Both the position numbers and the translations under genes were made by a program. This document shows, in pieces, positions 363-28,949 of a DNA stretch of 32,349 nucleotides. Origin of the DNA: an uncultured Oscillospiraceae bacterium (lineage in GTDB: Bacteria > Bacillota > Clostridia > Oscillospirales > Oscillospiraceae); assembly GCA_947631395.1 (NCBI GenBank), contig CANRLF010000024.1, positions 1 to 32,349 of the forward strand, written 5' to 3'. Position 1 is the first letter of the stretch. Each line of letters starts with the position of its first letter. The notes under the pieces are model-generated. The model saw only the letters and a program-made list of their open reading frames with translations, had not been told where the DNA came from and searched no databases.

Positions 363-1409
363 TCACAGCGAATTTGCTCCCTCAGACTGGTCATATCCAA
401 CAACCCCCGCCAAAAACGCCAGCACAAGCCCCTGTCCCCATCCCTGGATCCAGTCCCGGCTTATGTTGCGGTAGCCCTCCCGGTCCCGCATGACCGCGGT
501 GCCGCCGGACACGTTCATCACCCGTCCGTCCGGGGAGATATTGGCCAGTATCCCCGGAATGGCCCTGTTTATGTACTTTATGTGCAGGGGGTTGCCCTTG
601 GCCACCATGGCCGCGGCGATACCGGCGGAGGCTGACACCTCCTCATAGCTCTCCGGATCGTCAAGTATAGTCCGCCAGAGCCCGTTTTCCGTCTGCAAAA
701 GCTTCAGCGCCGCCAGCTGATCGTTCAGCGACCCCACCACGTCCAGGAACTTCGGATACAGGTACGCCTCCGGCAGCCTCACGCCCACCTGTGACATGGT
801 GTACGCCGCCCACGCGTTGGCCCTGCCCCAATAGAAGCCTGACATGTGGTCCTTCGTTATGTTGTTGTACCCGTGGTAATAAAGTCCCGTGGCGGGATCC
901 TGAAGGTACTTTATGTGCCAGTACCACTGATTTAAGGCGTCGTCGATAAGCTCCTCGTCATGGAGCTCCACGCCCACCCTCAGCATGAAAAACGCCGCCA
1001 TAAACAGCGTGTCGGCCCACGCCTGCTCGGGGAAGTCGTTGTTGGCCGATACCGTGTGCTGAAGCACCCGATCCGCGAATCTCAGGGCCGAATTGCGCAG
1101 ATAGTCTATCTTGCTCATCACCACGTCCAGGTACTTCTTCTCCCCCGTGTGCTGATAGAGGGAAAGACAGCAGTGCCCCATGGAGCAGGTATTCACCGTC
1201 CAGGTGGGAAGGCCCAGCTCAAGATACTCGTCGACCCTGGCCCTCACCGCGTCCAGATACTCCTTCTTCCCCGTGGCCTCATATGCCTCGCAGATGCCGT
1301 AATACGCCACGCCGCAGGGCCAGTCCCAGGTCATATCCATGCGCATGGTGCGGTCCACCACCGCGTCCATCGCCTTCATCACCTGTTCCCTGTCAAAATC
1401 AAGCTTCAT
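363..1409 (-). CDS. Unsaturated rhamnogalacturonyl hydrolase, GH105 (YteR/YesR-like)
   Basis: This enzyme would remove the 4,5-unsaturated galacturonic acid that a rhamnogalacturonan lyase leaves at the non-reducing end of RG-I oligosaccharides. The 348-residue protein has the tryptophan-rich (alpha/alpha)6-barrel pattern of GH88/GH105. The WADTLFM motif supplies D133, the likely counterpart of the catalytic Asp of YteR, and a GFYWGRANAW motif spans 191-200. The start at 1409 is chosen because GAGGAGGGTGAAG precedes it; the open frame extends further upstream but that part overlaps the mutarotase gene. There is no signal peptide, so it should act in the cytoplasm. It is the last gene of the operon, 11 nt after the rhamnose mutarotase. 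The PL11 lyase upstream would make its substrate. GH88 is the alternative family. Confidence 0.9.
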   Translation of the reverse strand: MKLDFDREQVMKAMDAVVDRTMRMDMTWDWPCGVAYYGICEAYEATGKKEYLDAVRARVDEYLELGLPTWTVNTCSMGHCCLSLYQHTGEKKYLDVVMSKIDYLRNSALRFADRVLQHTVSANNDFPEQAWADTLFMAAFFMLRVGVELHDEELIDDALNQWYWHIKYLQDPATGLYYHGYNNITKDHMSGFYWGRANAWAAYTMSQVGVRLPEAYLYPKFLDVVGSLNDQLAALKLLQTENGLWRTILDDPESYEEVSASAGIAAAMVAKGNPLHIKYINRAIPGILANISPDGRVMNVSGGTAVMRDREGYRNISRDWIQGWGQGLVLAFLAGVVGYDQSEGANSL

Positions 1410-1420
1410 CTTCACCCTCC

Positions 1421-1738
1421 TCAGTCCAGCCTGAACACCGGCTCCAGCTTCGGCTGAGCCCCGGTGACCGGGTCCATCTCCAGCTCTAAGATGTCCCGCA
1501 TGTACTCGTTCCACTTGTCCACGATTGGGCTCTGGGCCTGGGTCTTTTCCGCGAACTCAATGCCCTTCTCGCACTCGTAGTAGCCGAAAAGCTCCTCGCC
1601 GTTGGCGAAAATGGTGTAGTTGCAAATCCCGGCGGATTTCAGCACCTCCACCATCCCCGGCCAGATCTCGTTGTGGCGGCGGATATACTCGGCCTTACAG
1701 CCCGGCTTTATCCGCCCCTTCCACGCCATGCGCTCCAT
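1421..1738 (-). CDS. rhaM: L-rhamnose mutarotase
   Basis: It interconverts the alpha and beta anomers of L-rhamnose, so that sugar released by glycosidases or the phosphorylase meets the anomer preference of rhamnose isomerase. The 105 residues match the family's usual length. The diagnostic N-terminal pattern is intact: PGCKAEYIRRHNEIWP carries Y18 and H22, and Y41 follows in NYTIF; these correspond to active-site residues of E. coli RhaM (YiiL). The start at 1738 has an AAGGAGGAATTTAT site. It sits within the degradation operon rather than with rhaBAD, between a small hypothetical gene (24-nt gap) and the GH105 gene. This ties the pectin enzymes to rhamnose use. Confidence 0.93.
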   Translation of the reverse strand: MERMAWKGRIKPGCKAEYIRRHNEIWPGMVEVLKSAGICNYTIFANGEELFGYYECEKGIEFAEKTQAQSPIVDKWNEYMRDILELEMDPVTGAQPKLEPVFRLD

Positions 1739-1762
1739 ATAAATTCCTCCTTATTGTTATTT

Positions 1763-2113
1763 TTATGGTCCGAAAATCCAAAAATGAGCATTCCCGCCGT
1801 TACCGGCCCTGAGCCACTTATCGACGTTTGCGAAAAAATCGTCCAGCGTCAGGTCCCGCTCCGGGTCCATGGCGGCAAGGGCGCGTATCCTCTCCCACTC
1901 GTCCACCGTCACCCTGTTCGGCCCGTACCCGTCAAATTCCGGCAGGACCTTGAGTATGTACGGCATTAAAATGTCTATGCTGTTCTCCTGGATGCCCCAG
2001 TTTAGATAAAACGAGCTCTCGGCCCAGTATTTTTCCCGGTCGCCGTTTTCGGCATAGGAAAATTCGTATACGCACGAGTCCTCGATCTCGTCATATGCCA
2101 GCATCCTTATCAC
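1763..2113 (-). CDS. Hypothetical small acidic protein
   Basis: I do not recognise this 116-residue protein. It is rich in Asp, Glu and aromatic residues, has no membrane segment or signal peptide, and ends in WIFGP. The first part contains SSFYLNWGIQENSIDILMPYILKVLPEF and the second VDEWERIRALA and LTLDDFFANVDKWL. This suggests a small, mainly helical cytoplasmic protein. The GTG at 2113 is preferred because GGGGAG lies about 10 nt upstream; an in-frame ATG at 2104 is possible but its AAGG is too close. It follows the DUF6171 gene by 3 nt and is probably translationally coupled to it. Its place in a carbohydrate operon suggests an accessory role, but no function is assigned. Confidence 0.7.
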   Translation of the reverse strand: MIRMLAYDEIEDSCVYEFSYAENGDREKYWAESSFYLNWGIQENSIDILMPYILKVLPEFDGYGPNRVTVDEWERIRALAAMDPERDLTLDDFFANVDKWLRAGNGGNAHFWIFGP

Positions 2114-2116
2114 CGC

Positions 2117-2368
2117 TCACCAGCTCCCCATCGGGCAATGTATGTCCCTCTTCGCCGCCCGAAACTCCACAAAGCACCCGCACTGCATACAGGTGGCGTT
2201 TTGGAGATACCGGCAGGAGCGGCACATATCAAGCCGCCCTTCAAATTCCCCGTCCGCCGTCCTTACCTCCTCCGGAAGCTCCGCCCGGTAGGTCCTCACG
2301 GCCTCGTAAAGCTCCTTCCCCTCCGCAAGCTCCCGAAGGAGGCACCGGCGGCATTTCGTCTCACTCAC
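2117..2368 (-). CDS. Cysteine-rich small protein, DUF6171-like
   Basis: This 83-residue protein carries eight or so cysteines in CxxC-type pairs: KCRRC near the start, CRSC mid-way, CMQCGC after it, and a last Cys in HCPMGSW. The spacing, together with [10 protein letters not shown], resembles the clostridial DUF6171 family as I remember it. The arrangement suggests a metal-bound, probably zinc-binding, fold; that is inference. Translation appears to start at a GTG (2368) that overlaps the end of the GH51 gene by 8 nt, so coupling to the upstream gene is likely. The ribosome binding site is weak. Its role in a pectin operon is unknown. Confidence 0.75.
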
Positions 2369-3842
2369 GGTCTATTGTTATGGCCGCCACCGACGAGGCC
2401 GGGAGCGTCGCCGTAAAGCTCCTGTCCCCCGTCTCGATGTCCCGCATTTCGGCGGGCCTTACGGCATCGGGCCTGTCAAACGTGTTGTGCTCCCCCGGCT
2501 TTCCGGAGAGAACCGTACCGGTGACCTTAGTGCCCTTCTTCACGCCGTCCATCATAACCTCAATATTGGCGCTGTCGGTGTCCGAAAGGTTCACCACGGT
2601 GAGGAGCACCTTCCCGTCGCTTCCCTCGCTGGCGGAAACATGTATATCCGGTACCTGCCACTCCCCGCAGGAGATGAGCTTCGTCTCGGCGTATGTCTCC
2701 ACCTGCCTCGCCCCCTGGTGGTGCTTGTACATGTCAAACACGTGGTACGTTGGCGTCAGGAGCATCTTTTGCCCCTCCGTCAGCACCATCGCCTGGAGCA
2801 CATTCACCGTCTGGGCGATATTCGCCATCACCACCGTGTCGCAGTGGTTATTGAATATGTTGAGGTTTATCCCGGCCACCAGCGCGTCCCGCATGGAGTT
2901 TTGCTGATAGAGGAACCCCGGATTTGTCCCCGGCTCCACGTCGTACCAGGTGCCCCACTCGTCTACCACCAGTCCCAGCCGCCCCGTTGGATCGGCCTTG
3001 CGCAGTATCCGCCCGTGCTCCGTGACCAGCTCCTTCATTCTCAGGGTCTTTTGCAGTACGGCGAAATACTCCTCCCTCGAAAATCCCGTGGCCGCGCCCT
3101 TGTGCTGCCAGTCGTCGTTTGGAAGCGTGTAGTAGTGAAGGCTCAACGCGTCTATGGTGTGCCCCGCCGTCTCCGCCACCTTCCGTGTCCACTCGTAATC
3201 CGCCACATTGGCCCCGGAGGCGATCTTATATATGTGGTGGTCCGAATAGTCCCTCAGATACGTGGCGTACTGCCTGCAAAGGTCCGCGTAATACTCCGGC
3301 CTCATGTTGCCGCCACAGCCCCAGGCCTCGTTGCCGATGCCCCAGTACTTCACGTTGAAGGGCTCTTTTTGCCCGTTTTCCCGCCTGAGGTCCGCCATGG
3401 GCGACACCCCCGGCATGTTGCAGTACTCCACCCAGTCCGAAAACTCCTGCACCGTGCCGGAGCCCACGTTTCCCGAGAAATACGCCTGACAGCCCAGCTG
3501 ACGGCAGAGCTCCATGAACTCATGGGTGCCGAACCTGTTGTCCTCCGTGACCCCGCCCCAGTTCGTGTTGACGATGGTCTTTCGCTGAGAGACCGGCCCC
3601 ACGCCGTCACGCCAGTGGTAGGTGTCGGCAAAGCACCCCCCGGGCCAGCGAAGGACGGGGATATTGAGCTTTTTGAGGGCCCCGACCACGTCGGACCTGA
3701 GCCCCTTTTCGTTGGGTATTGGGCTATCCTCGCCCACCCATAGCCCCTCGTAAATACACCTTCCCAGGTGCTCCGCGAAATGCCCGTATATGTTTGGATT
3801 TATCGTCCCGGCTGACCGGTTGGGGTTTATGACAATACGCAT
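2361..3842 (-). CDS. Alpha-L-arabinofuranosidase, GH51
   Basis: It releases terminal alpha-L-arabinofuranose from arabinan or arabinogalactan side chains. The 493 residues are typical of cytoplasmic bacterial GH51 enzymes. The N-terminus ([24 protein letters not shown]) and the [13 protein letters not shown] block are diagnostic. [12 protein letters not shown] holds the acid/base E172 and [10 protein letters not shown] the nucleophile E295. The TIM barrel is followed by a C-terminal beta domain to the end. AAGGAGATTTCT supports the start. There is no signal peptide. It lies 10 nt after the GH112 gene, and side-chain arabinose would have to be removed before the backbone enzymes and the phosphorylase can act. 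No arabinose catabolic genes are seen in the window. Confidence 0.93.
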
Positions 3843-3852: not shown

Positions 3853-6000
3853 TTATATCTTCTCTATCACCGAGCCGCAGGGCGGAAGCTCAACTGTCCG
3901 CGCCCCGCCGGGAGTGGATACCCTGACGGTCCTGCTCTCTGAAGAGTTATTTATGACCACCAGCTCCCCGCTTTCCGGGAACCACGCGCACTCCGCCTCC
4001 GGCGTGTCCGTGAGCCAGCTCTGCTCAAGCCCCCGGCCGCTGGCCCAGAGCATGAGGTTTAATAGCATCCTCGTGTTCTCCGGCCTCACCTGGAAGCTCG
4101 ACATATATATCCCGCTCCCGGCCCCCAGCTTATGGGCCGTTACGGTTGGAAGTCCGTTCTCCGCGGCCAGCACCCTCGTCTCGCCGTCTGTCAGATACAC
4201 ATCCTCAAGTCCCCGGACGCCCGCGCCCTGTGGGATGAGCCCCGGAACGGCCTCCACGTCGAAGGTATATTTCCCGTGGCACACCCTGGCGCCTGTGTCC
4301 CTGTCCACGCCCAGGACGTCCCGGAGCCTGAAATAGCCCCAGCCTCCCGGCGCCGCGCTTGGCTCGCCCACGCCCAGGAATACGCCGCCCTTCATTACCC
4401 ACTTCGTCACCGCGGCTATAAGCTCCGGGTCCTTCCAAACGTCCCCGCCGCTCCAGGCACTGCCCGCCCGGCCGGCGTTTATGACCACGTCCACGCCCTC
4501 AAGCCCGCCGTTCACCGCGTCCTTGAAGTCCATGAACTTGACCTCCACCGGAAGGCCCGATAGGGCCTCGTCTATGTGTATAAGGTCGTGCATGTACGTC
4601 TCGTGGAAGTGTCCCGACAGCGTCCACGGCCGCAGGGCCCCCCAGGAGTGCATCACCGCCACCCTTAGCGGCAGTACCGCCGGAGCTCCGCCCTCGTGGA
4701 GCCTCCTGATCGCCCGGAACTCGTCGGAGATCTCGGCTATATAGTCCACGAAATCCGGGAACCCCTCCAAAAGGTGAATATACCCTCCAAGTCCTATGCG
4801 GTCTATCTTCGCCCTCAAGAGCGCCCTTCGCACGTTGACCCAGTACTGCTTGGCGTCCCTCGTCGGGTCGCCCCCCTCCATAAAGGTCGGCGCTCCCCCA
4901 AGGCCCACCGGGAAGAGATACGGATGGAGCCTCAGCTCATGGGTCCCCGCCGGCACCCCGGCGCAAAGCCTTGCCTCGTAGCCGGAGAACACGCACTTTA
5001 TTATGCCGTCAAACCCAAACTCCGGGAAATGCTTCCCGTAGGGCTCCACGCCCACCCAGCTGTCGTCGTAGAAAACATAGGCTTTCTTCCCGTACCTGTG
5101 CACCAGGTCCACAAGCTCCCGTCCGAAGGACGCCACGTACTTCTGCGTAAACTCCATGTAGTCCCGCTTGTGCTCCGTCGGCGGCATATGGGTCACCTGA
5201 AGATCCCCGCGGTTTATGAAGTCCTCGGCGGTGAGGGCGTAGCCGTACTCCTTTTCAAAGTCCTCCAACGCCTTCTCGCTGACGGTGAAGTCATAGCTCC
5301 CCCAGTCGGTAAATAGCGTCCTGTCCCGCTCGTGGCTTCCCCATATCCACACGAAGTTATAGAACATGCTGGTAAAGCGCACAACCGTCGTGTCCGGGTG
5401 CTCCTTGCACCATCTGTCAAGGTAGTTATATAGATACTCCCTGGCCACCGGGAGCCTCGGGTCAATGGGCATCAGATGCTCGCTCGTCCAGGAGTTCGTC
5501 ACATGGTTATACATGTTTATCTCCTCCCAGATGCGGTAGGCCATGAAGCTCACGGTGTAGCCGTGATAGGGAACCGGCTTTTTAACGGTGACGACGCCCT
5601 TTTCATAGCTCCACCCGCTCTTTTCAAGCATCTCCCCCGCCGTCCTGTCCCAGACCTGCCAGTAGCCCATGGCCTTTTTAGAGTCGTTGACCCTGAACTG
5701 CTCGGCGAAAAATCCGGCCATAAGGTCGATTTTCAGCTCCCCCTCCCCCGCGACCTGGGGCTCGGTGGACAGAAACGTCTGCTGAAGGCACTCCGGGTGC
5801 TGTCGCCCGAACTCGTTGTGCTCCCTTATGATGCAGATGGTGGAATAGACGCCGTACCCGGCGTTTATTATCTCGTCGGATAGCTTGGTCCCGTCGCTGT
5901 CCCGGACCACGTCCGCCCCCCATCTCTCCGCCAGCTCCAGCGTGAGCTTCTCGTATCCGGCCTCGCCGGGCATTGTAAATCCGCCTTTTGTGTGCTCCAT
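3853..6000 (-). CDS. GH112 phosphorylase, probably D-galactosyl-beta-1,4-L-rhamnose phosphorylase
   Basis: GH112 enzymes cleave beta-galactosides with phosphate, giving galactose 1-phosphate and the second sugar. Known activities are galacto-N-biose/lacto-N-biose phosphorylase and D-galactosyl-1,4-L-rhamnose phosphorylase. The 715-residue protein has the family start (GGFTMP...[17 protein letters not shown]) and the [16 protein letters not shown] block. D313 in that block aligns by motif with the general acid D313 of the bifidobacterial enzyme. The C-terminal third holds the glutamine-amidotransferase-like and beta domains. The neighbours all concern rhamnose and RG-I, so the Gal-Rha specificity is inferred: this disaccharide arises where galactan side chains join rhamnose. 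The start at 6000 follows AAAGGGGATAAACA; a second ATG at 5973 is also possible. There is no signal peptide. Confidence 0.9.
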
Positions 6001-6059: not shown

Positions 6060-7388
6060 TTATGTTATGGGCCACGGCGCCCCGGGTATCATGCCGTAGT
6101 CCACCAGCGGCGGACTCTCCGGCGGAATTTCCATCCCCTCCGGTATCTCCTCCTCCGGCGGCCTCTTCAGCCCCTCCAGCGGCGGCCGCACGGGCCAGGG
6201 CTCAACATTTTCGCCCTTAATGACCCCGAGCCTTACAAGCTCCGCCGCCACAAAGCCCGCGATCATGTGCGCTCCGAAGTCGTTGGGGTGTGTGTAGTCG
6301 CACGGGTGGAACCAGGGCTTTGCCCCCTCCATCCCGGCATCCAGTATGGCGGCCTTCATCTTACCGTGAAGGTCGCATACCTTCACGCGCTCCCTCTCCC
6401 CTATCCTCTTTACCGCCTCGGCGTAGGGAAACAGCATGTCGTTATACTTTTTCTCGCTTGCCCACGTGTTCCTCGCAAGGCTCGTCACAAGTATGGGCTC
6501 CGCCCCCGCCTCCCGAAGCTCACGGATAAATCTCAAAAGATTTTCCGTATACCCCGTGTCCGCGGCCAGGTGCAGTCTCTTCTGGTCGTTGTGGCCGAAC
6601 TGTATTAGCACCTTGTCCCCGGGCCTTACCTGCTCCAGCATAAGCTCATAGTGGCCCATGTCCCTGAACGTCTCCGTGGACAGCCCCGAGTGGGCGTGGT
6701 TTGAGATAAGATACTCCGTCCCCACATAGAGCTGCAGCGCCTGTCCCCACCCGGCGTAATTCACCCCCGGGGCGTAGGGCGTCACCGCCGGCTGATCCGT
6801 CACGGTGGAATCGCCCATGAGGAACATAGCGGGCCCGTCATATTTATCGATCTTTATATCCGCGAGCCCCGCGCCCACAAGGCACAGGTCCACGGCCCTG
6901 CACTCGCGCCTTCCCAGGTCCCCCGCGGCGGCGTCCCCGCCGCCCACGGCGATTATGGGAGCAACATCGCAAAGCACCCGGACCGACCGTCTCTCCCCGG
7001 CCCTCAGCTTGCCCATCCACGCAATGTGCCGGCGGCCTGTGAACACGACGGCCCTCTCCGTGTCCTCCCGGGCGGTCAGCGTCGCCGTCACCTCATAATG
7101 TCCCGACTCCACGTCGGCCTTGAACCACAGCGGAAGCTCCCGCCCCTCCAGGTCCTCGGCTCTCGCGTCCTTCCCCGGCACGGCGTACACCGCCCCGTCG
7201 GCGCTCTTAACCCGCGTGAGCTCCCGGCCCTCGTACCACCATACCGGCGTAAAGCCCGAGTTTACCTCCGGGACCTTCAGCTCCGGATACGCCCCGATCT
7301 CCCGCTCCGTCACAAATCCACAGCCGCCCGGGGCGTACATTTTAACGCCGAAAGCCGAAATATCCGCGTAAAAAGGTATGTTCACCAT
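6060..7388 (-). CDS. Rhamnogalacturonan acetylesterase, CE12 (SGNH hydrolase)
   Basis: It probably removes O-acetyl groups from RG-I galacturonic acid. Residues 1-180 form a beta-rich domain with no catalytic motif, perhaps a jelly roll. From 185 onward the SGNH esterase is complete: MGDSTVTD with nucleophile S194, AHSG with G235, FGHND with N267, and DYTHPND with the D364/H367 dyad. This matches rhamnogalacturonan acetylesterase (YesT/YesY, RgaE). A proline-rich tail spans about 398-442. The start has GAGGATAAAAGT upstream and lies 10 nt after the deacetylase gene. It has no signal peptide. A second CE12 domain is fused to the PL11 lyase in this operon, so the locus devotes two esterases to acetylated RG-I. 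Confidence 0.88.
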   Translation of the reverse strand: MVNIPFYADISAFGVKMYAPGGCGFVTEREIGAYPELKVPEVNSGFTPVWWYEGRELTRVKSADGAVYAVPGKDARAEDLEGRELPLWFKADVESGHYEVTATLTAREDTERAVVFTGRRHIAWMGKLRAGERRSVRVLCDVAPIIAVGGGDAAAGDLGRRECRAVDLCLVGAGLADIKIDKYDGPAMFLMGDSTVTDQPAVTPYAPGVNYAGWGQALQLYVGTEYLISNHAHSGLSTETFRDMGHYELMLEQVRPGDKVLIQFGHNDQKRLHLAADTGYTENLLRFIRELREAGAEPILVTSLARNTWASEKKYNDMLFPYAEAVKRIGERERVKVCDLHGKMKAAILDAGMEGAKPWFHPCDYTHPNDFGAHMIAGFVAAELVRLGVIKGENVEPWPVRPPLEGLKRPPEEEIPEGMEIPPESPPLVDYGMIPGAPWPIT

Positions 7389-8211: not shown

Positions 8212-8255
8212 ATTTATACCTCCCAAACAGTGAAATTTATAGATTTTGCACGGCC

Positions 8256-13501: not shown

Positions 13502-13530
13502 ATTATATACTCATTTTTTCTTTTTTTCAA
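13502..13530 (-). promoter_or_regulatory. Promoter of the degradation operon
   Basis: Read leftwards: TTGAAA at 13530-13525, a 17-nt spacer, and a perfect TATAAT at 13507-13502. The -35 lies inside the last codons of the 216-residue membrane protein gene. The leader to the ATG at 13442 is about 50 nt. No copy of the AraC boxes seen near 18.1 and 19.1 kb is present just upstream. Confidence 0.8.
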
Positions 13531-14161: not shown

Positions 14162-14206
14162 GATGTTCTCCTTTACGGTCTTATCCTGGGTATTATTTGC
14201 GAAGCC

Positions 14207-14237
14207 GTGAGAGGCCAAAAGGCTTTTGAGCTCTCAC
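14207..14237. other. Inverted repeat in the leader of the membrane protein gene
   Basis: GTGAGAG at 14207-14213 and CTCTCAC at 14231-14237 form a 7-bp stem, and an inner CAAAAG/CTTTTG pairing extends it. It would lie in the 5' leader of the 14161 start, between the predicted promoter and the ribosome binding site. No terminator T run follows. Confidence 0.4.
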
Positions 14238-15932: not shown

Positions 15933-15986
15933 AAAGTATCCTCCTGTTTTGTTTTTCGACAGCCCTTCGACTGTCATGTTTACTTA

Positions 15987-17958: not shown

Positions 17959-18083
17959 TGTATTCCTCCCTTTTCTCATTTTTCCTCGCGTCAGGCGCCC
18001 ACGGCGTTCCCTGTCTACGCCGTCCGCACCCGATGCCCGCCGGCCCGGGACACACCTGTGCCCACACGCCGCCTTATTGTCAT

Positions 18084-20119: not shown

Positions 20120-20120
20120 C

Positions 20121-20870: not shown

Positions 20871-20871
20871 C

Positions 20872-22851
20872 ATGTTCCTCATCACCTCAAATACCCGCGT
20901 CGCCCGCCCCCCGGCCCTGAGCCCCGCCGTAATGAACGCCGCGAATATATTGGAGCGCGACATCTCCCGCCGGCTCATAAGCTCCGGGGATGCCAAAAGC
21001 CTCATCTCCCTCGTCCCCTCCCCCATGTCCCGGCCGGAGGAATTTACCGTCACGGTCTCTGACGGCGCGATGTCCGTGGCCGCCTGTGACGACCTGGGCT
21101 TTGTCTACGGCCTTCTTTACATATCCGAAAAATTCCTCGACATACCCCCCTTCTGGTTCTGGATGGACGTAAAGCTCCAAAGGCTCCCGCCCGTCGCCGT
21201 ACCGGACGGGTCATATAAAGGAAAAAAGCCCGCGGTCAAATACCGGGGCTGGTTCATAAACGACGAGGTCCTCATCTCCCGCTGGAGCGTCAACGGCGAC
21301 AGTGCCGAACCCTGGCGCATGGCCTTTGAGGCGCTGCTGCGTTGCGGCGGCAACATGGTCATCCCCGGCACGGATAAGGACTCCCACCGTTACCGTGCTC
21401 TCGCCTCCTCCTACGGCCTCATCATCACCCACCACCACGCCGAGGCCCTTGGGGCCGAGTTCTTCCTCCGTGAGTACCCCGACCTGGAGCCCAACTACGA
21501 CGACCACCCGGAGCTCTTCCAGAAGCAGTGGGAGGACGCTGTCCTGGCCCAAAAGGACATGCGTGTCGTCTGGTGCCTCGGCTTTCGCGGCCAGGGGGAC
21601 TCCCCCTTCTGGGCCAACGACACCACCGGCAAATACGACACCGACGAAAAGCGCGGCGCCATGATCTCCTCGATGATACGCCTCCAGCGCGCTATCGTCG
21701 AAAAACACGTGGCCTCCCCCGTATTTTGCACGAACCTCTACGGCGAGGTCATGGAGCTTTACGCCAGGGGCCTTGTGGACATCGACCCCGACATAATAAA
21801 GATCCGCGCCGACAACGGCTTTGGCAAAATGGTCACCCGCCGCCGTGGGTCCCACGACCCCCGTGTGTCCTCCCTGCCGGCGGAGCCCGATGAGCGCGGC
21901 GGCATATATTACCACGCCTCCTTTTACGACCTCCAGGCCGCGGCCCACATCACCATGCTCCCTGTGAGCGTGGACTTCGTAAACTCCGAGCTCGACCGCG
22001 TATTTTCCAAAAACCTCTCGGAATACTGGCTCATAAACTGCTCCAACATCCGCCCCCACGCCTACATGCTTGACGCCATACGCAAAAAGTGGTTCGGCGA
22101 GGAGCTCTCCGACGACAGCCACAGCCTCCGGTTCGCCTCCGCGTATTTCGGCGGCTCGGAAAAGATCGCCCGGTGCTACCGGGAGTACGCCCCCGTCCAG
22201 CTCCCCTTCGGCCCGGAGCCCGACCAGCGGGCCGGGGAGCAGTTTTACTGCGAGCTTCCGAGGACCGTAGTCCACCAGTTCTTCCGTGACCGTCTCTCCC
22301 CCGCCCCGGGCCTTCGCTGGCTCACGGACGCCGGGACGCTGTCAGGGCAGGTGAGATACTTCGCCTCCCTCTGTAAAAATGCCCTCCCTGGCCTTGCGGC
22401 CCTCTGGGAGAAATGCCGCGACGCCGGCGGCGAGCCCATAGCCCTCCAGTCCCACCTCCAGCTTTTGGGGGCCACGGCCGGTGTGAAGCTCGGCGAGGGG
22501 TTTGAGTATCTTGAAAATAGCGACTACCTCCACGCCTTCATATCCTTCGGCGACGCCGCGCGGTTATTTCTTGACGCCGACGTGGCCCTCCGCTCCTCTG
22601 AGAGCGGCGTTTTCACCGGCTTTTACCGAAACGACTGCTTTGCCGACTACAAGCACACGGCCTTCATGCTCCAAAAGCTCATGGGCTATGTCCGGGAGCT
22701 CGGCGACTCCCCCGCCCACGACAGGTGGTACAGGCTGGCCTATATGTCAAAGCGCGACAGGCCCATCCGCGTACTGCTGGTGGAGGACAACCACCCCACG
22801 GACTGGGAGCTTTATTTAAAATTCAAGGAAAACGAAGGAGCGATCACATGA
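20872..22851 (+). CDS. GH115-like glycoside hydrolase (putative alpha-glucuronidase)
   Basis: The 659-residue protein carries the marks of GH115: an N-terminal beta/alpha domain with DLGFVYGLLYISEKFL (74-89), then KYRGWFINDEVLISRW (123-138), the YGLIITHHHAEALG block (181-194) and LGFRGQGDSPFW (236-247). GH115 enzymes remove alpha-1,2-linked glucuronic acid or its 4-O-methyl ether. Characterised members are usually longer, with extra C-terminal beta domains, so this is a short, divergent form. There is no signal peptide. The ATG at 20872 is preferred over a GTG at 20863; neither has a strong ribosome binding site. The gene overlaps or abuts the stop of the previous gene and overlaps the GH28 start by 4 nt. 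Glucuronic acid on RG-I or arabinogalactan side chains is a plausible substrate. Confidence 0.75.
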   Translation: MFLITSNTRVARPPALSPAVMNAANILERDISRRLISSGDAKSLISLVPSPMSRPEEFTVTVSDGAMSVAACDDLGFVYGLLYISEKFLDIPPFWFWMDVKLQRLPPVAVPDGSYKGKKPAVKYRGWFINDEVLISRWSVNGDSAEPWRMAFEALLRCGGNMVIPGTDKDSHRYRALASSYGLIITHHHAEALGAEFFLREYPDLEPNYDDHPELFQKQWEDAVLAQKDMRVVWCLGFRGQGDSPFWANDTTGKYDTDEKRGAMISSMIRLQRAIVEKHVASPVFCTNLYGEVMELYARGLVDIDPDIIKIRADNGFGKMVTRRRGSHDPRVSSLPAEPDERGGIYYHASFYDLQAAAHITMLPVSVDFVNSELDRVFSKNLSEYWLINCSNIRPHAYMLDAIRKKWFGEELSDDSHSLRFASAYFGGSEKIARCYREYAPVQLPFGPEPDQRAGEQFYCELPRTVVHQFFRDRLSPAPGLRWLTDAGTLSGQVRYFASLCKNALPGLAALWEKCRDAGGEPIALQSHLQLLGATAGVKLGEGFEYLENSDYLHAFISFGDAARLFLDADVALRSSESGVFTGFYRNDCFADYKHTAFMLQKLMGYVRELGDSPAHDRWYRLAYMSKRDRPIRVLLVEDNHPTDWELYLKFKENEGAIT

Positions 22852-24308
22852 GCAGGCTCTATTACGCCGTCACCTCCGACACCGCCACCATGTGGTGGGA
22901 GAAGGCCGTCCCCGGCCCTTACGCCGTCACCGTGGACGGCAAGACCTATTTCACCGAAAAGACCCATTTCACCTTGACCGGCCTGGCCCCCGACGCCGTT
23001 TATGACGTGTCCGTCCGTGGCGGCGACCACGTATTCGGCCCCGAGAGCGTCCGGACCGAAAAGCTCCGCCACCGCCTGAACGTCCGGGATTTCGGCGCCG
23101 TCGGCGACGGCGTCACCATGGACACCCGCGCCCTCCAGGCCGCCATCGACGCCTGCGGGGAAAATCAGGAGGTCTACGTCCCCGCCGGCGCCTACATGAC
23201 CGGTGCCCTCCGGCTCCACTCCCACATGTCCCTCTATATCGACGAGGGGGCCACACTTCAGGGCACCGCCGATCCCAAAGACTACGAGCCCCGTATATGG
23301 AGCCGCTTTGAGGGCATAGAGCAGGAGTGCTACTCCAGCCTTCTCAATTTAGGTTCTCTCGACCACGCCTCCGGCCCCAACTGCCGTGACGTTCTCATCT
23401 ACGGCCACGGCACCGTTGCCTCCGGCGGCCAGGAGCTTTGCCTCAACGTCATCGACACCGAGCGTGAGCGCCTTCGGGACTATCTGGCGGCCAACGCCGA
23501 CCTCGTTGCCACCTGCGAAAACGACCACACCATCCCCGGCCGCGTCCGCCCCCGGCTCATAAACATGTCAAATTGCGAGAATATCCGTATCTCCGGCCTG
23601 ACCCTCAAAAACGGCGCCAGCTGGAACCTCCACTTTATTTACAGCCGCGGCATCCTCACCGACCACTGCACCTTCCTCTCCGAGGGTGTGTGGAACGGCG
23701 ACGGCTGGGACCCGGACTCCAGCGAGGACTGCACCCTCTTCGCCTGCCGCTTCTTCACCGGCGACGACATGGTGGCCGTGAAATCCGGCAAGAACCCTCA
23801 GGGCAACGAGATAGACCGCCCAACGAAGCGCGTGCGCATCTTCGACTGCGAGAGCTCCTTCGGCCACGGCATCGTCGTGGGAAGCGAGATGAGCGGCGGC
23901 GTGGAGGACGTGTGGGTCTGGGACTGCGACTTGGGCCAGGCCATGCAGGGCATAGAGATAAAGGCCACCCCCAAGCGGGGCGGCTATGTCCGTGGCCTTC
24001 GCCTCACCGACTGCTCCGTGGCGAGAGTACTCATGCACACCGTCCCCTACAATGACGACGGCGTCCCCGGCCCCGACCAGCCCATATTCGAAAACTGCCT
24101 TTTTGAGCGTGTGCGCATCCTCGGCCAGAGCCTTGACCACGACCACATCCTCCACCGCACCCCCGCCATCGAGCTCGTGGGCTTTTCAAAGCCCGGCCAC
24201 GAGATACGCAACATCGAGTTTACCGACTGCACCCTGTCCGCCGGCAACCTCGGCCTCCTCCTCCAAAAATGCGCCAACCTCACCTTCAAAAATCTAAAGT
24301 GTGAATAA
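22848..24308 (+). CDS. GH28 polygalacturonase/rhamnogalacturonan hydrolase family protein with FnIII
   Basis: It hydrolyses galacturonic acid links in pectin backbones. Residues 1-72 look like an FnIII domain. From 79 on the right-handed beta-helix of GH28 begins (VRDFGAVGDGVTMDTRALQAAIDAC). Catalytic motifs: WNGDGWDPDS with D285 (the NxD site), FTGDDMVAVKSGK with D306 and D307, and FGHG with H340. The last motif reads IEIK at 369-372 instead of the usual RIK; K372 is kept but the Arg is not. The 486-residue protein has no signal peptide, so exo-type trimming of imported fragments is likely. The start at 22848 follows GAAGGAGCGATCAC and overlaps the previous stop as ATGA. A bidirectional terminator follows. 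Confidence 0.9.
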   Translation: MSRLYYAVTSDTATMWWEKAVPGPYAVTVDGKTYFTEKTHFTLTGLAPDAVYDVSVRGGDHVFGPESVRTEKLRHRLNVRDFGAVGDGVTMDTRALQAAIDACGENQEVYVPAGAYMTGALRLHSHMSLYIDEGATLQGTADPKDYEPRIWSRFEGIEQECYSSLLNLGSLDHASGPNCRDVLIYGHGTVASGGQELCLNVIDTERERLRDYLAANADLVATCENDHTIPGRVRPRLINMSNCENIRISGLTLKNGASWNLHFIYSRGILTDHCTFLSEGVWNGDGWDPDSSEDCTLFACRFFTGDDMVAVKSGKNPQGNEIDRPTKRVRIFDCESSFGHGIVVGSEMSGGVEDVWVWDCDLGQAMQGIEIKATPKRGGYVRGLRLTDCSVARVLMHTVPYNDDGVPGPDQPIFENCLFERVRILGQSLDHDHILHRTPAIELVGFSKPGHEIRNIEFTDCTLSAGNLGLLLQKCANLTFKNLKCE

Positions 24309-24351: not shown

Positions 24352-25323
24352 TTATTGCGCCAGACTCCCCCGCGCCCTGTACTCCCCCGGCGTACACCCG
24401 AATTTCTCCTCGAACCTGCGGTAGAAAAATGCCGTGTTCTCATAGCCCACGTTGAAGGCTATATCCGCCACCGTGAGGTCCGTCTCCGTCAAGAGCGCCA
24501 CGGCCCTGTTAAACCTCGCCGTGTGAAGAAGCTCCGTAAAGGAGCACCCGGTACGGCGCTTCAGCATCCTGGTCAGCGTCGACGGCGTAAGGTCCCGCTC
24601 CCTGGCAAGCTCAGAGAGGGTGCACTTCACGTCCCCCTCTATCCTTCCCAGGGCCCAGAGCACTGTGGCCTGCTCCCTGTCCCGCCTTCCCGATATGAGC
24701 AGCTTTTCCGCCCTCGTGGATAGGTGGTGCATCAAAAGCTCCAGTGTGCCCCTCTGGAGCTCCTGGCGCTGGAAGTCCGCGCCCTCCAGCTCCAATATCA
24801 CCATGTTTTCCAGAAGATTTTCTATGGCCGGGTCCCCGGACACGTCAAATACGAGATACGCCCCGTCGCTGTCCCCCTGCCTTAAATTGCTCTTTAAAAA
24901 TACGCTCAGGGCGTTGGCCCCGCCTATGGACATGGCCGCCGAGTCGAAAAAGGCCGGTACGAGAATGAAATTCACCGCTATATCCCCGGCCCCCGCCGGC
25001 ATTATCTCGTGCTCCACGCCCCGCCCCAGTAAAAGAAGGCTCCCCGATCTGAGCTCCAGCCTTTCCGTCCCGTCTATTATGTGCCGGGTGGAGCCCGTCA
25101 CCTCATATACCATCTCCACATACGTGTGGCTGTGCCGCGGGAAGGCCGCGAATCTGGTGTGTGTGCGTATGCCGAAAAGATGCCCCGATTTAAGTATCTC
25201 CCCCGGCTCCAGCACCGTCCCCCCGGCCCGGTTATATAGGGTCATATCCACGCCCTCGCCGCTCAGTATCTCCCGCTCCTCGTCGGAAATTTCTGACAGT
25301 TTGCGTATGACCTCTTCTCTCAT
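24352..25323 (-). CDS. AraC-family transcriptional regulator, likely for rhaBAD
   Basis: The 323-residue protein has an N-terminal cupin sensor (HTRFAAFPRHSHTYVEMVYEVTGSTRHIIDGTERLELRSGSLLLLG, about 54-98). The C-terminal AraC DNA-binding domain spans about 220-318, with CTLSELARERDLTPSTLTRMLKRRTG and LTVADIAFNVGYENTAFFYRRFEEKFGCTPGEYR. The start at 25323 follows GGGGGTGTGGAA; the frame stays open to 25395 but that part lies over the promoter. It is divergent from rhaB with a 139-nt gap, and the pairing suggests it responds to rhamnose or a related sugar. It is not similar in sensor sequence to the first AraC protein, and the boxes of that regulator are absent here. Confidence 0.9.
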   Translation of the reverse strand: MREEVIRKLSEISDEEREILSGEGVDMTLYNRAGGTVLEPGEILKSGHLFGIRTHTRFAAFPRHSHTYVEMVYEVTGSTRHIIDGTERLELRSGSLLLLGRGVEHEIMPAGAGDIAVNFILVPAFFDSAAMSIGGANALSVFLKSNLRQGDSDGAYLVFDVSGDPAIENLLENMVILELEGADFQRQELQRGTLELLMHHLSTRAEKLLISGRRDREQATVLWALGRIEGDVKCTLSELARERDLTPSTLTRMLKRRTGCSFTELLHTARFNRAVALLTETDLTVADIAFNVGYENTAFFYRRFEEKFGCTPGEYRARGSLAQ

Positions 25324-25342
25324 TTCCACACCCCCTGTATGA

Positions 25343-25371
25343 ATAGTATATCTCCCGGAGCTCCCTGTCAA
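25343..25371 (-). promoter_or_regulatory. Promoter of the second AraC regulator
   Basis: Read leftwards: consensus TTGACA at 25371-25366, a 17-nt spacer, TACTAT at 25348-25343. The leader to the ATG at 25323 is short, about 15 nt. Confidence 0.8.
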
Positions 25372-25413
25372 GGAAAAACGCAAAATCGGATACAATAAAT
25401 AATTATTACGTCA

Positions 25414-25441
25414 TTGAACCGCGCTATAAAAATTGTATAAT
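25414..25441 (+). promoter_or_regulatory. Promoter of the rhaBAD operon
   Basis: TTGAAC at 25414-25419, a 16-nt spacer, consensus TATAAT at 25436-25441. Just upstream, the perfect palindrome AATAATTATT (25398-25407) lies between the two divergent promoters and could be an operator; that part is inference. Confidence 0.75.
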
Positions 25442-25462
25442 GTTGTAATAAGGGGTGATAGA

Positions 25463-26740
25463 ATGAAGTATTATCTGGCAATCGACATCGGCGCCTCCTC
25501 CGGCCGCCACCTTGTGGGCTGGGCGGAGAACGGCGAGCTCAGGACCCGTGAGGTCTACCGCTTCCCCAACGGCGTCAAGGAGCGGGACGGCCATCTCGTC
25601 TGGGATATGGAGGCCCTGTCCCGGTATGTCCGCGAGGGCATAGACAAGGCCCTTGGGGAATTTAACGAGATAGAGTCCTTCGCCATCGACACCTGGGGCG
25701 TGGACTATGTGCTCATGCGTGGCGAAAAGCCCGTGCTCCCCTGCTTTGCCTACCGTGACAGCCGCACTCAGGCCGTCATCGACGAGGTCCACGGCATCGT
25801 GCCCTTCGAGGAGCTCTACCGCCGCACGGGCTGTCAGTTCCAGCCCTTCAACACGGTCTATCAGCTCTATGAGGACAAGAAGAGCGGCAGGCTCGAGGGC
25901 GTCACCGGCCTACTCATGGTCCCTGAATATCTCATGTGGACCCTCACCGGCGTTAAGGCCCGTGAGTACACCAACGCCACCACCCAGGGCCTCATCTCCG
26001 CCTCCACCGGCAAATTCGACCGCGAGATCACCGACCGTCTCGGTCTACCCCGGTGCCTCTTCCCCCACCTCACCATGCCCGGCGCCGTCATCGGCACCTA
26101 CAAGGGCATAAAGGCCGTCCTCTGCGCCACCCACGACACGGGCTCCGCGGTGGAGGGCATCCCCATGGACGGTACCGAGCCCTACATCTCCTCCGGCACC
26201 TGGTCCCTTTTAGGCGTCAAGACCCCCCGGCCCATCACCGACCTTAACAGCATGGAGGCCAACTACTCCAACGAGGGCGGCGTGGGCTACAACCGCTATC
26301 AGAAGAACATCATGGGCATGTGGCTCATAAACAGGCTCCGCGGGGAGCTCTGCCCGGACACGGATTTCGGCAGCATCGTCGATCTGGCCCGCGGAAGCTC
26401 CAACACCGCCACCGTGGACTCCGAAGGCCAGGAGTTCCTGGCCCCCGAGAGCATGGTCCGGGCCTTTGACGCCGCCACCGGCGGCGCTCTCAGGACCCCC
26501 GGCGACTATTTCAACTGCGCCCTGCGCTCCCTTGCCCTTGGATATAAAAAGGCCCTTGAGGAGCTGGAGGCCAACACCGGCAGGAAGTACTCAAAGCTGT
26601 ACATCGTCGGCGGCGGCGCCAGGAACGGCTATCTCAACGAGCTGACCGAAGAGGCCACGGGCAAGACCGTCGTGGCCCTCCCCATCGAGGCCACCGCCAT
26701 CGGAAATCTAAAAATCCAAATGAAGGAGGAACACATATGA
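25463..26740 (+). CDS. rhaB: Rhamnulokinase with a shortened C-terminus
   Basis: It phosphorylates L-rhamnulose to L-rhamnulose 1-phosphate with ATP. The FGGY kinase marks are clear: YLAIDIGASSGR (4-15), FAIDTWGVDYVL (73-84), the substrate/base region CATHDTGSAVEG with D225 (221-232), GTWSLLG, and the ATP-site GGGARNGYLNEL. The start at 25463 follows AAGGGGTGATAGA. The protein is only 425 residues and stops soon after PIEATAIGN, where known RhaB proteins continue for roughly 40-60 more residues. The last codons here run through the ribosome binding site of rhaA (AAGGAGGAACACAT), and the genes overlap as ATGA. This looks like a deletion; whether it is active cannot be told. Confidence 0.9.
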   Translation: MKYYLAIDIGASSGRHLVGWAENGELRTREVYRFPNGVKERDGHLVWDMEALSRYVREGIDKALGEFNEIESFAIDTWGVDYVLMRGEKPVLPCFAYRDSRTQAVIDEVHGIVPFEELYRRTGCQFQPFNTVYQLYEDKKSGRLEGVTGLLMVPEYLMWTLTGVKAREYTNATTQGLISASTGKFDREITDRLGLPRCLFPHLTMPGAVIGTYKGIKAVLCATHDTGSAVEGIPMDGTEPYISSGTWSLLGVKTPRPITDLNSMEANYSNEGGVGYNRYQKNIMGMWLINRLRGELCPDTDFGSIVDLARGSSNTATVDSEGQEFLAPESMVRAFDAATGGALRTPGDYFNCALRSLALGYKKALEELEANTGRKYSKLYIVGGGARNGYLNELTEEATGKTVVALPIEATAIGNLKIQMKEEHI

Positions 26741-27993
26741 GTTACAGCGAGGCAAAGGAAAAATACGCCGCCCTTGGCGTGGACGTCGAGGCGGCAATGG
26801 CGAAGCTCAGGACCGTCCCCGTATCCCTGCACTGCTGGCAGGGCGACGACGTGCGCGGCTTTGACACCGACCCCACGAAGCCCCTGACCGGCGGCATCCA
26901 GACCACCGGCAACTACCCGGGCCGCGCCCGCACCCCCGAGGAGCTTATGGCCGACATTGACGAGGTCCTAAAGCTCATCCCCGGCAAGGTCAAGATGAAC
27001 CTCCACGCCAGCTACGCCATCTTCGAGGACGGCGACTGGGCCGACCGGGACAAGCTCGAGCCCCGGCACTTCAAAAAATGGGTGGACTTCTGCAAGCAGC
27101 GTGGCCTTGGGTGCGACTTCAACCCCACCTTCTTCTCCCACCCCAAGTGCGACCCCCTGACCCTGTCCTCCCCCAATGAGGACACCAGGCGCTTCTGGAT
27201 CGACCACGGCAAGGCGTGTATCCGCGTAAGCCAGTACCTGGCCGACGAGCTGGGCGGCGAGTGCGTGATGAACATCTGGACCGGCGACGGCCTGAAGGAC
27301 GTCCCCGGCGACCGCCTTGGCCCCCGCGTTCGCTACCGTGAGGCCATCGACGAGATCCTCTCCGAGCCCTATGACTTCAACAAGGTCAAGCCCTGTGTTG
27401 AGTCCAAGGTGTTCGGCATCGGCGTGGAGGCGTACACCGTGGGCTCCGCCGAGTTCGCCCTGAGCTACGCCGCCGCCAATCCCGGTAAGTGCATCCCCCT
27501 CATGGACAACGGCCACTATCACCCCACCGAGGTCGTCAGCGACAAGATCCCCGCCCTCCTTGCCTTCTACCCCGAGATCGCCCTCCACGTCACCCGCCCC
27601 ATCCGCTGGGACTCCGACCACGTGGTGCTCTATGATGACGAGACCCGTGAGATCGCCCGTGAGATCGTCCGGTGCGGCGGCCTGGACGGCCGTGTGAAGA
27701 TCGCCTTGGATTACTTCGACGCCTCCATAAACCGCGTGTCCGCCTGGACCACCGGCTTCCGCAACATGCAGAAGGCCCTTCTCTTCGCCCTTCTCCAGCC
27801 CAACGCCGAGGAAAAGCGCCTTCAGGACTCCGGCGACTTCACCGCCCTCATGGTCCTGCAGGAGGACCTCAAGACCGCCCCCTTCGGCGATGTGTGGGAC
27901 GAGTACTGCCGCAGAGAAAATAAGCCCCTGGACGGACAGTGGCTGCCCGAGATAAAGAAGTACGAAGCCGACACGCTCAGCAAAAGAGCGTAA
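26737..27993 (+). CDS. rhaA: L-rhamnose isomerase
   Basis: It converts L-rhamnose to L-rhamnulose in the cytoplasm. The 418-residue length is normal for RhaA. The N-terminal region SLHCWQGDDVRGF (30-42) and GECVMNIWTGDGLKDVPGDRLGPRVRY (174-200) are characteristic. The metal ligands are visible by motif: E231 in GVEAYTVGS, D257 in PLMDNGHYHPTE, H284 in ALHVTRP and an Asp in ALDYFDASINR (D325 or D328). The start has an AAGGAGGAACACAT site and overlaps the rhaB stop by 4 nt. It is the second gene of the rhaBAD operon. Confidence 0.96.
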   Translation: MSYSEAKEKYAALGVDVEAAMAKLRTVPVSLHCWQGDDVRGFDTDPTKPLTGGIQTTGNYPGRARTPEELMADIDEVLKLIPGKVKMNLHASYAIFEDGDWADRDKLEPRHFKKWVDFCKQRGLGCDFNPTFFSHPKCDPLTLSSPNEDTRRFWIDHGKACIRVSQYLADELGGECVMNIWTGDGLKDVPGDRLGPRVRYREAIDEILSEPYDFNKVKPCVESKVFGIGVEAYTVGSAEFALSYAAANPGKCIPLMDNGHYHPTEVVSDKIPALLAFYPEIALHVTRPIRWDSDHVVLYDDETREIAREIVRCGGLDGRVKIALDYFDASINRVSAWTTGFRNMQKALLFALLQPNAEEKRLQDSGDFTALMVLQEDLKTAPFGDVWDEYCRRENKPLDGQWLPEIKKYEADTLSKRA

Positions 27994-28013
27994 AAGAACA
28001 GGAGGTAAATGAT

Positions 28014-28949
28014 ATGGCACTCAAGGACATAGATTTCAACGGCCTGAAGGACAAGACCGTAGACGCGGCGAAGGACATGGCCGGCAAGGTCAGCGTCGTC
28101 GTGAACGACACCGTGGAGAAGCTGAAGCGCCGCGATATAATGACCGCCCCCTTTATGATCGAGATGATCCGCACCGCCACCAACATGTACGACCACGGCT
28201 GGGACGAGCGCAACGGCGGCAACATAAGCCTCATGGTCAGCGAGGAGGAGGTCGCCAAATACTTAGACCTCACCGCCGTCATCCGCGAGATCCCCACCGG
28301 CTTTGACGCCCCCACCCTTGACGGCAGGTACTTCCTTGTCACCGGCACGGGCAAATATTTCAAGAACGTCCAGTACGCCCCCGACGTGAACCTGGGCCTC
28401 ATCCGCGTGAAGGACTCCGGCCGCACGGCCGAGCTCCTCTGGGGCTACACCGACGGCGGCCAGTTCACCTCTGAGCTCCCCGCCCACCTTATGAGCCACG
28501 CCGCGCGCCTGGCCGTGGACCCCGACAACCGCGTCGTCATGCACTGCCACCCCGGCAACCTCCTGGCCATGACCTACGTCCACTCCCTGGACGAAAAGGA
28601 CTTCACCAGGACCCTCTGGCAGATGTGCACCGAGTGCATCGTCGTGTTCCCCGAGGGCGTCAACGTCCTGCCCTGGATGCTCTGCGGCACCAACTCCATC
28701 GGCGAGGCCACCGCTGAGAAGATGAACACCGCCCGCCTCGTGGTCTGGTCCCAGCACGGCATCTACGGCGCCGGCAAGGACTTAGACGAGACCTTCGGCC
28801 TCATCGAGACCGCCGAAAAGGCCGCCGAGATCTACATGAAGATCGCCCACCTGCACATAAAGAATACCATCACCGACGACGCCATGTGGCAGCTCGCCGA
28901 CCGCTTCAACCTCACCCCCCGCTCCGGCTACCTTAAACCCCGCAAATAA
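28014..28949 (+). CDS. rhaD: Rhamnulose-1-phosphate aldolase with an N-terminal extension
   Basis: It splits L-rhamnulose 1-phosphate into dihydroxyacetone phosphate and L-lactaldehyde. The class II aldolase core is intact: WDERNGGNISL (63-73), VTGTGKYFKNVQ (109-120), TSELPAH with E154, the zinc pair H177 and H179 in MHCHPGN, and H248 in WSQHGIYG. E. coli RhaD has 274 residues and its core begins almost at once. Here about 45 residues come first, with a helix-like stretch (NGLKDKTVDAAKDMAGKVSVVVNDTVEKLKRR). The start at 28014 has a perfect AGGAGGTAAATGAT site, so the extension is translated. The gene lies 20 nt after rhaA. No lactaldehyde reductase gene or microcompartment shell gene is seen in the window. 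Confidence 0.94.
   Translation: MALKDIDFNGLKDKTVDAAKDMAGKVSVVVNDTVEKLKRRDIMTAPFMIEMIRTATNMYDHGWDERNGGNISLMVSEEEVAKYLDLTAVIREIPTGFDAPTLDGRYFLVTGTGKYFKNVQYAPDVNLGLIRVKDSGRTAELLWGYTDGGQFTSELPAHLMSHAARLAVDPDNRVVMHCHPGNLLAMTYVHSLDEKDFTRTLWQMCTECIVVFPEGVNVLPWMLCGTNSIGEATAEKMNTARLVVWSQHGIYGAGKDLDETFGLIETAEKAAEIYMKIAHLHIKNTITDDAMWQLADRFNLTPRSGYLKPRK

Follow-up and report, generated by a model that had tools for sequence, protein, structure and literature searches.

A probable rhamnogalacturonan-I oligosaccharide locus with an apparently cytoplasmic enzyme set and a predicted galactosyl-rhamnose phosphorylase in an uncultured Oscillospiraceae bacterium

Among the systems described for rhamnogalacturonan I (RG-I), the yes/yte genes of Bacillus subtilis (YesW, YesX, YesOPQ, YesR and YteR) bring together PL11, GH105, an oligosaccharide ABC importer and a DUF624-type protein. 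The same combination recurs in the 32,349-nucleotide stretch analysed here (the window; contig CANRLF010000024.1, positions 1 to 32,349, GenBank assembly GCA_947631395.1), which belongs to the 2.57 Mb, 97.6% complete genome of an uncultured Oscillospiraceae bacterium and is contig C24 in our numbering. A first-pass annotation, made from the letters alone, had proposed a complete, apparently cytoplasmic RG-I degradation set at positions 363–28949, and the RG-I gene set occupies exactly these positions. We consider it probable that these genes serve the utilisation of RG-I oligosaccharides and that the backbone is cut, acetyl groups are removed and side chains are taken off entirely within the cytoplasm. 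The prediction that its GH112 enzyme acts by phosphorolysis on D-galactosyl-beta-1,4-L-rhamnose (Gal-Rha), also made in that annotation, has strong though indirect support from the GH112 tree, from residue differences and from neighbouring genes. YesW and YesX have been described as secreted (PMC7596534; this and the other PMC articles are cited from partial texts), whereas the window PL11 is fused to a CE12 domain and is apparently cytoplasmic; the crystallised YesX chain matches from residue 4, so the location of YesX itself deserves a check.

Other described systems share parts of this arrangement. Paenibacillus amylolyticus 27C64 likewise has a PL11-CE12 fusion (Pamy_4308), together with CE12, GH105 and GH106 proteins without signal peptides, but its fusion and its other PL11 carry signal peptides, unlike the window protein, and GH112 is not mentioned in the partial text of that study (PMC6339884). 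In Butyrivibrio hungatei MB2003, genes for PL11, CE12, GH115 and binding proteins are upregulated on pectin, and imported oligosaccharides are broken down in the cytosol (PMC6344614); its PL11A may be an earlier example of a cytoplasmic PL11. The Gal-Rha phosphorylases (GalRhaP) of Lachnoclostridium phytofermentans (Cphy_1920) and Opitutus terrae (Oter_1377) also belong to GH112. Such an enzyme moves galactose from galactose 1-phosphate onto the 4-OH of L-rhamnose (PMC4336185), and an RG-I role has been proposed for Cphy_1920 (PMC8950772). The window gene, which we liken to these two by family and context, differs from them in sharing an operon with PL11, GH105, CE12 and rhaM. Roseburia loci for human milk oligosaccharides similarly pair an importer with a GH112 enzyme releasing galactose 1-phosphate, on milk and mucin sugars, but there the substrate is galacto-N-biose/lacto-N-biose (GNB/LNB) and the partner GH136 rather than GH105 (PMC7335108). 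Lachnospiraceae loci such as that of Lachnospiraceae bacterium GAM79 carry, in this order on one strand, LplB, LplC, a binding protein (named by eye), GH105, CE12, GH112, GH28 and GH51; unlike in the window, PL11, CE4 and GH106 were not matched in the fetched stretch. The GH112 model found no match in any of 14 control genomes, B. subtilis included, while the window locus has a predicted phosphorylase for the Gal-Rha step.

The core of the locus is a minus-strand run of LplB, LplC, a binding protein, a 235-residue protein, GH106, PL11-CE12, CE4, CE12, GH112, GH51, a 116-residue protein, RhaM and GH105, whose intergenic gaps of −4 to 247 bases are consistent with one operon (Table 1). On the plus strand lie DUF624, a 266-residue protein, GH115 and GH28, as well as RhaB-RhaA-RhaD; both AraC regulators are on the minus strand. 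The gene positions confirm that the enzymes stand next to an LplB/LplC-type importer and rhaMBAD, and a rhamnogalacturonan lyase, GH105 and LplBC-type importer in one place is the combination that marks RG-I utilisation loci of Firmicutes.

The cytoplasmic placement hinges on nine enzymes (GH105, GH51, GH112, CE12, CE4, PL11-CE12, GH106, GH115 and GH28), all annotated as starting without a signal peptide. Each frame was read from its upstream stop, every ATG, GTG and TTG up to 60 codons into the gene was tried as a start, and the score was the maximum, over all starts, of the mean hydropathy of 12 residues close to the N-terminus. The nine scored 0.76–1.43, with no signal-peptide-like stretch by this measure at any tried start, so corrected starts reveal no signal peptide; the references were 1.31 and 0.66 for the metabolic enzymes RhaA and RhaB, and 2.39–3.08 for LplB, the binding protein and LplC. 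All ten PL11-CE12 orthologs with a readable N-terminus (loci L004-L011, L015 and L020; 0.25–1.09) also lack a signal-like stretch. Among other PL11-bearing proteins, those of L046, L090, L091, L097 and L098 have signal-like N-termini (1.98–3.05), that of L089 has none (1.36), and that of L100 is cut. A cytoplasmic location of the whole set, as first annotated, is thus supported by the hydropathy test together with the PL11 orthologs.

The lyase itself carries RGI_lyase and RGL11_C domains and aligns to YesW and YesX across both halves. Its R638, K727 and Y787 are invariant in an 11-sequence alignment and align with the Arg, Lys and Tyr of YesW that we take to be catalytic (R452, K535 and Y595, whose spacing agrees with the alignment). 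Domains and residues together place it among the PL11 rhamnogalacturonan lyases, and the conserved triad makes it look catalytically competent. The distance from KTAPGT to GPEYLT is exactly 116 residues in 11 of 11 members of its group, versus 24 in L089 and L090 and, counted in the alignment, 24 in YesW and YesX. The resulting 92-residue insert, common to all 11, marks a PL11 subclade; in L020 the insert is present and the CE12 domain absent. A structure model of the protein is poor (pLDDT 57.4, pTM 0.41) and was read only locally, where several helices are predicted with low confidence in the insert region (residues 301–400, block means 68–91). The PPGNDGMSY stretch of YesX, presumably its exo loop, has no counterpart in the window protein, which at this place follows YesW but for a one-residue gap. 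The protein is accordingly not of the exo, YesX-like type, which favours an endo cleft. A cytoplasmic PL11 is not stated in the portions covered of PMC7596534, PMC8787155, PMC6339884 and PMC6344614, the last of which does not say there whether Butyrivibrio PL11A has a signal peptide.

The first-pass annotation had called for a search of the rest of the genome for secreted PL11, PL9 or GH53; this gave no candidate with a signal-like N-terminus for PL11 or GH53 and one that is PL9-like. No further PL11 occurs beyond the window, PL1 gave no match, and none of the three GH28 copies has a signal-like N-terminus (the copy on C30 judged by eye). The single GH53 starts MGDTTANRF, without a signal, and adjoins GH42, two permeases, GalK, GalE and GalT on C5 (of these neighbours, all but GalK and GalT were identified by eye from their sequences). 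Directly before it in this galactan-type locus lies a 612-residue protein that neither Pfam nor NCBIfam models match (L130:7648-9486; C5:84647) and that may represent a new family linked to galactan. On C21, KduI stands beside a second GH88/GH105-type protein, CE8 has one match (C4:46.9 kb), and GH43-type matches fall in four frames, one within a lipoprotein-like open reading frame (ORF; C3:65-67 kb) and the other three not. Two proteins are PL9-like. The first, of 1465 residues (C1:159642-164039; L143:4643-9040), combines a signal-like N-terminus (2.82) with a beta helix of PL9 type and, at the C-terminus, three SLH domains; it is a candidate cell-surface pectin lyase that may act on homogalacturonan or RG-I, and the NCBIfam PelX/PelN matches are far under the cut-off. 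The second, a PelX-like protein of 682 residues without a signal peptide (C2:71346; L144:5347-7395), looks like a second lyase family in the cytoplasm. Among the families searched (PL4, PL10 and PL26 not among them), pectin processing thus appears mostly intracellular, with one clear lyase candidate and one GH43-like candidate lipoprotein on the surface side. The notion that no outer enzyme exists at all is ruled out by the SLH-anchored protein. Two parts of the first-pass annotation go too far: 'complete' overstated a set whose GH53, GH42, GalK/GalE/GalT and KduI lie on other contigs, and import 'nearly intact' is not shown, as the SLH-anchored PL9-like protein could shorten the polymer outside.

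Our tentative proposal, plausible though short of probable, is that an intracellular PL11 subfamily with the 92-residue insert, mostly CE12-fused, enables Oscillospiraceae to take up RG-I oligosaccharides that are still long, acetylated and branched and to cut their backbone inside, as a Gram-positive counterpart of selfish uptake, and that a relay from lyase to GH105 to GH112 makes free Gal-Rha and phosphorolyses it. The bacterium may instead be a pure scavenger that takes up only di- to tetrasaccharides from neighbours, its PL11 trimming ends rather than cutting long chains. With no PL1 match, and no signal-like N-terminus on any PL11, GH28 or GH53, the genome is compatible with such a life, the fixed insert could reshape the lyase cleft, and B. 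hungatei MB2003 offers a precedent in taking up released pectin oligosaccharides for cytosolic breakdown (PMC6344614). The 1465-residue PL9-like protein with its signal-like N-terminus and SLH domains, and the missing YesX-type loop, point the other way, and we hold scavenging to be a real but doubtful possibility. A related galactosylated or rhamnosylated glycan, such as an arabinogalactan-protein or an exopolysaccharide, could also be the main target instead of RG-I. GH105, GH106, GH115 and GH51 families are also active on arabinogalactan-type glycans. Plant and Klebsiella polysaccharides have been named in a review as possible GalRhaP substrates (PMC4336185). Yet the PL11 retains the RG-I lyase catalytic residues, and two CE12 domains, GH28, rhaMBAD and an LplBC-type importer suit RG-I, leaving this alternative highly improbable.

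The case for Gal-Rha as the GH112 substrate begins with phylogeny. The protein is encoded by a single copy in the genome and has the three-domain GH112 architecture (TIM barrel, central and C-terminal; PF09508, PF17385 and PF17386, all above cut-off). Its nearest relatives (L002-L013; 75–91% identity) come from uncultured Oscillospiraceae of the 'Lapin' series of metagenome-assembled genomes, which makes a rabbit-gut origin of the window probable, and a plasmid search for GH112 returned one distant Subdoligranulum record. GH112 matches in 12 genomes form two sets, at 62–69% and 30–39% identity. Among 397 genomes from the family of a Konateibacter genome (G306), 110 have a match, in sets of about 57–69%, 51–53%, 38–41% and 33–38% identity (fragments aside), and 20 GH112 places were retrieved from this search. 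We call the window's own group A, the 51–53% group C, the set resembling the B. longum GNB/LNB phosphorylase (GLNBP) B, and sequences of 36–41% identity (L181-L194) D. In a midpoint-rooted tree of 46 sequences (17 of 82 A, 8 B, 6 C, 14 D and B. longum GLNBP), a split with support 1.0 puts A and C apart from all others, GLNBP included.

Residues follow the same division. Comparing 82 A sequences (the window, 80 loci and L113) with eight of the nine other-clade matches (L122, a 292-residue fragment, was dropped), we found 47 positions almost fixedly different between A and the GLNBP-like B. Six of the changes, in GLNBP numbering DPV to EEI at 160–162, G235S, G312D, S336C, G338F and L360H, are each present in 82 of 82 A sequences and are shared by group C; we take these positions to be tied to the acceptor site, G312D adjoining the catalytic Asp. 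GLNBP R32, N166, R210, W233, D313, R358 and Y362 are aligned and unchanged in all GH112 groups, D313 being presumably the catalytic Asp and the others the phosphate- and galactose-binding core. Group D mostly keeps the GLNBP letters, except for Thr at 162 in 12 of 14; within it, L183 and L191 branch apart. The window enzyme neither groups with GLNBP nor carries the acceptor-side residues of GNB/LNB phosphorylases (EC 2.4.1.211), and a specificity for galacto-N-biose, which would have contradicted the annotation, is not seen as far as sequence can tell.

Gene context was compared over flanks of up to 10 kb for A loci, the best 80 of 355 relatives, and about 8 kb for the others, with the GNB/LNB side represented by 20 loci (6 of 8 B genes and 14 D genes); the loci are related by descent, and the counts are therefore not independent events. 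By ORF, 60/80 A loci have GH105 no more than 10 kb from GH112 (57 no more than 3 kb), and 62/80 have a GH105 hit by tblastn, pieces included; CE12, LplC and LplB lie within 10 kb in 50, 43 and 39 of the 80. GH105 is likewise near GH112 in 6/6 C loci, versus none of the 20 across the split (0/6 B, 0/14 D); among the six B loci, CE12 is absent and LplB and LplC are found in two each. Named isolates that carry the GH105-CE12-GH112 core include Gemmiger formicilis DFI.6.10 and Lachnospiraceae bacterium GAM79, with no PL11 in the stretches retrieved; no locus with PL11-CE12 is from a named isolate. Standing apart from GNB/LNB enzymes and within an RG-I gene context, the window GH112 is thus best assigned as a predicted Gal-beta-1,4-Rha phosphorylase. 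That it is a GNB/LNB phosphorylase instead is very unlikely and was set aside on tree, residues and context, although TIGR02336 ('1,3-beta-galactosyl-N-acetylhexosamine phosphorylase') matches it at 658 bits (cut-off 560) and the GLNBP core is unchanged; from its name and score, we read that model as not separating the two GH112 activities.

Several points weigh against the cytoplasmic RG-I route as a whole. The hydropathy test is not equivalent to SignalP, and its result is also compatible with non-classical export. Twenty of the 80 A loci have no GH105 ORF, although in ten of these the contig stops no more than 10 kb from GH112 and one such edge (L014) carries a GH105 piece. In others, such as L025 and L079 (Hungatella hathewayi and Konateibacter massiliensis), a window-type GH112 stands, judged by eye, alone among seemingly unrelated genes. 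The window GH105 is closer to 3pmm/3qwt than to YteR in a PDB search, equivalence to the characterised Cphy_1920 and Oter_1377 is inferred from exclusion and context, and the GH42 on C5 could hydrolyse Gal-Rha in place of GH112. Finally, the RGI_lyase model matches 9 of 295 sampled genomes of the order (the window's own included), six above cut-off, and none of the two other sampled genomes of the same genus; with PL11 this rare, the full RG-I set is uncommon rather than general in the order.

Under the cytoplasmic RG-I reading, fragments cut outside, whether by other microbes or by this bacterium's SLH-anchored PL9-like protein, would be captured by the lipoprotein and imported through LplBC; deltaGalUA-Rha-Gal is a known ligand of YesO, the B. 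subtilis binding protein (PMC7596534). Inside, judging from their families, the two CE12 domains and the CE4-like protein would take off acetyl groups, GH51 arabinose, and GH115, GH28 and GH106 uronic acid and rhamnose ends. By family chemistry, PL11 would cleave the backbone by beta-elimination, leaving rhamnose at the reducing end and unsaturated galacturonic acid at the non-reducing end. Once GH105 strips the latter, a backbone unit bearing a single galactose would become free Gal-beta-1,4-Rha, the reported substrate of GalRha phosphorylase, and this order of lyase, GH105 and GH112 may explain why the genes travel together. GH112 would then convert Gal-Rha and phosphate to galactose 1-phosphate and rhamnose. 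RhaMBAD would consume the rhamnose, GalT/GalE (C5) could accept galactose 1-phosphate without galactokinase, saving one ATP per galactose, and KduI (C21) may accept the unsaturated galacturonic acid product.

Table 1. Genes of the window's RG-I locus, with positions in the window and the basis of each assignment.
Feature	Position	Strand	Basis
GH105, unsaturated rhamnogalacturonyl hydrolase type	363..1409	-	Pfam Glyco_hydro_88 2e-75; PDB 3pmm, 3qwt, then YteR; no signal peptide
RhaM, L-rhamnose mutarotase	1421..1738	-	Pfam rhaM 5e-24
116-residue protein	1763..2113	-	No Pfam/NCBIfam match; relative in 1/80 loci (L003)
GH51 alpha-L-arabinofuranosidase	2361..3842	-	Pfam Alpha-L-AF_C 9e-53; no signal peptide
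GH112 beta-galactoside phosphorylase, predicted D-galactosyl-1,4-L-rhamnose phosphorylase	3853..6000	-	Three GH112 Pfam domains; tree, residues, context
Predicted CE12-type GDSL acetylesterase	6060..7388	-	Pfam Lipase_GDSL_2 3e-14; relative in 51/80 loci; no signal peptide
CE4-like deacetylase	7399..8259 (start probably 8211)	-	Pfam Polysacc_deac_1 1e-20; PDB deacetylase matches; no signal peptide
PL11-CE12 fusion, rhamnogalacturonan lyase with 92-residue insert and acetylesterase domain	8256..11396	-	Pfam RGL11_C 4e-164, RGI_lyase 1e-22; no signal peptide
GH106 alpha-L-rhamnosidase, 681 residues	11406..13451	-	Pfam, profile and fold; no signal peptide
235-residue membrane protein	13511..14218	-	No Pfam match; hydropathy 2.61; relatives in 9/80 loci
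Lipoprotein solute-binding protein of importer, LplA/AlgQ-like	14376..15977	-	Hydrophobic N-terminus 3.07, lipobox-like LASC; PDB 5xs8, AlgQ2
LplC-type permease	16015..16938	-	Pfam BPD_transp_1
LplB-type permease	16954..17979	-	Pfam BPD_transp_1
AraC-family regulator	18237..19064	-	Pfam HTH_18, AraC_binding
DUF624 membrane protein	19310..20119	+	Pfam DUF624, weak (27.9 bits, cut-off 24.2)
266-residue protein	20070..20870	+	No Pfam/NCBIfam match; one hydrophobic stretch, 2.70 at internal start; relatives in 3/80 loci
GH115, alpha-glucuronidase family	20863..22851	+	Pfam Glyco_hydro_115 1e-53; no signal peptide
GH28, galacturonidase/rhamnogalacturonidase type	22848..24308	+	Pfam GH28 8e-21; no signal peptide
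AraC-family regulator	24352..25395	-	Pfam HTH_18
RhaB, predicted rhamnulokinase	25433..26740	+	ORF; 44-45% identical relatives adjoin rhaA in L040, L062
RhaA, predicted L-rhamnose isomerase	26737..27993	+	ORF; relatives in 3/80 loci
RhaD, rhamnulose-1-phosphate aldolase	28014..28949	+	NCBIfam TIGR02624, 418 bits; N-terminal extension

Several of these assignments carry further detail. GH106 exceeds its Pfam cut-off (39 bits versus 29), 10 of 11 alignment members also match, and 6q2f, 5mqm and 5mwk are recovered both by profile and by fold comparison, which rules out a chance Pfam match. The fused, predicted CE12 domain matches PDB 2o14 (YxiM) and 1deo (rhamnogalacturonan acetylesterase); the stand-alone protein, likewise predicted as CE12, has the Pfam GDSL match only. 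For GH28, the NCBIfam PglA, alpha-galacturonidase and rhamnogalacturonidase models match below cut-off. The CE4-like protein retains SYDDG and HTYTHP, which we take to be CE4 motifs; in 13/80 loci a relative lies no more than 10 kb from GH112. RhaD bears a 42-residue N-terminal extension (28014-28140, plus strand) that is not present in RhaD of L040 and L075; its ATG at 28014 is preceded by a ribosome-binding-site-like AGGAGG, and the extension may serve as a helix for targeting or encapsulation. Scanning the window for Rfam families and tRNAs yielded nothing.

Every enzyme type here is already known; a backbone-cutting lyase inside the cell is unusual, and within the literature searched two things seem new, a clade of cytoplasmic PL11 that bears the insert and how strongly GH105 is linked to one side of GH112. 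The locus offers a concrete answer for the Gal-Rha branch point of RG-I in gut Firmicutes, the step that in B. subtilis, where galactose is removed after uptake, was left to 'an unidentified intracellular beta-1,4-galactosidase' (PMC7596534). It also makes a genome-based case for what one side of GH112 acts on in nature, a family whose NCBIfam name still refers to N-acetylhexosamine sugars, and the presence of the GH105-CE12-GH112 core in named isolates makes the phosphorolysis step directly testable. A cytoplasmic PL11 clade, set against the best-known bacterial PL11 enzymes, described as secreted, would alter who feeds on whose RG-I fragments in the gut.

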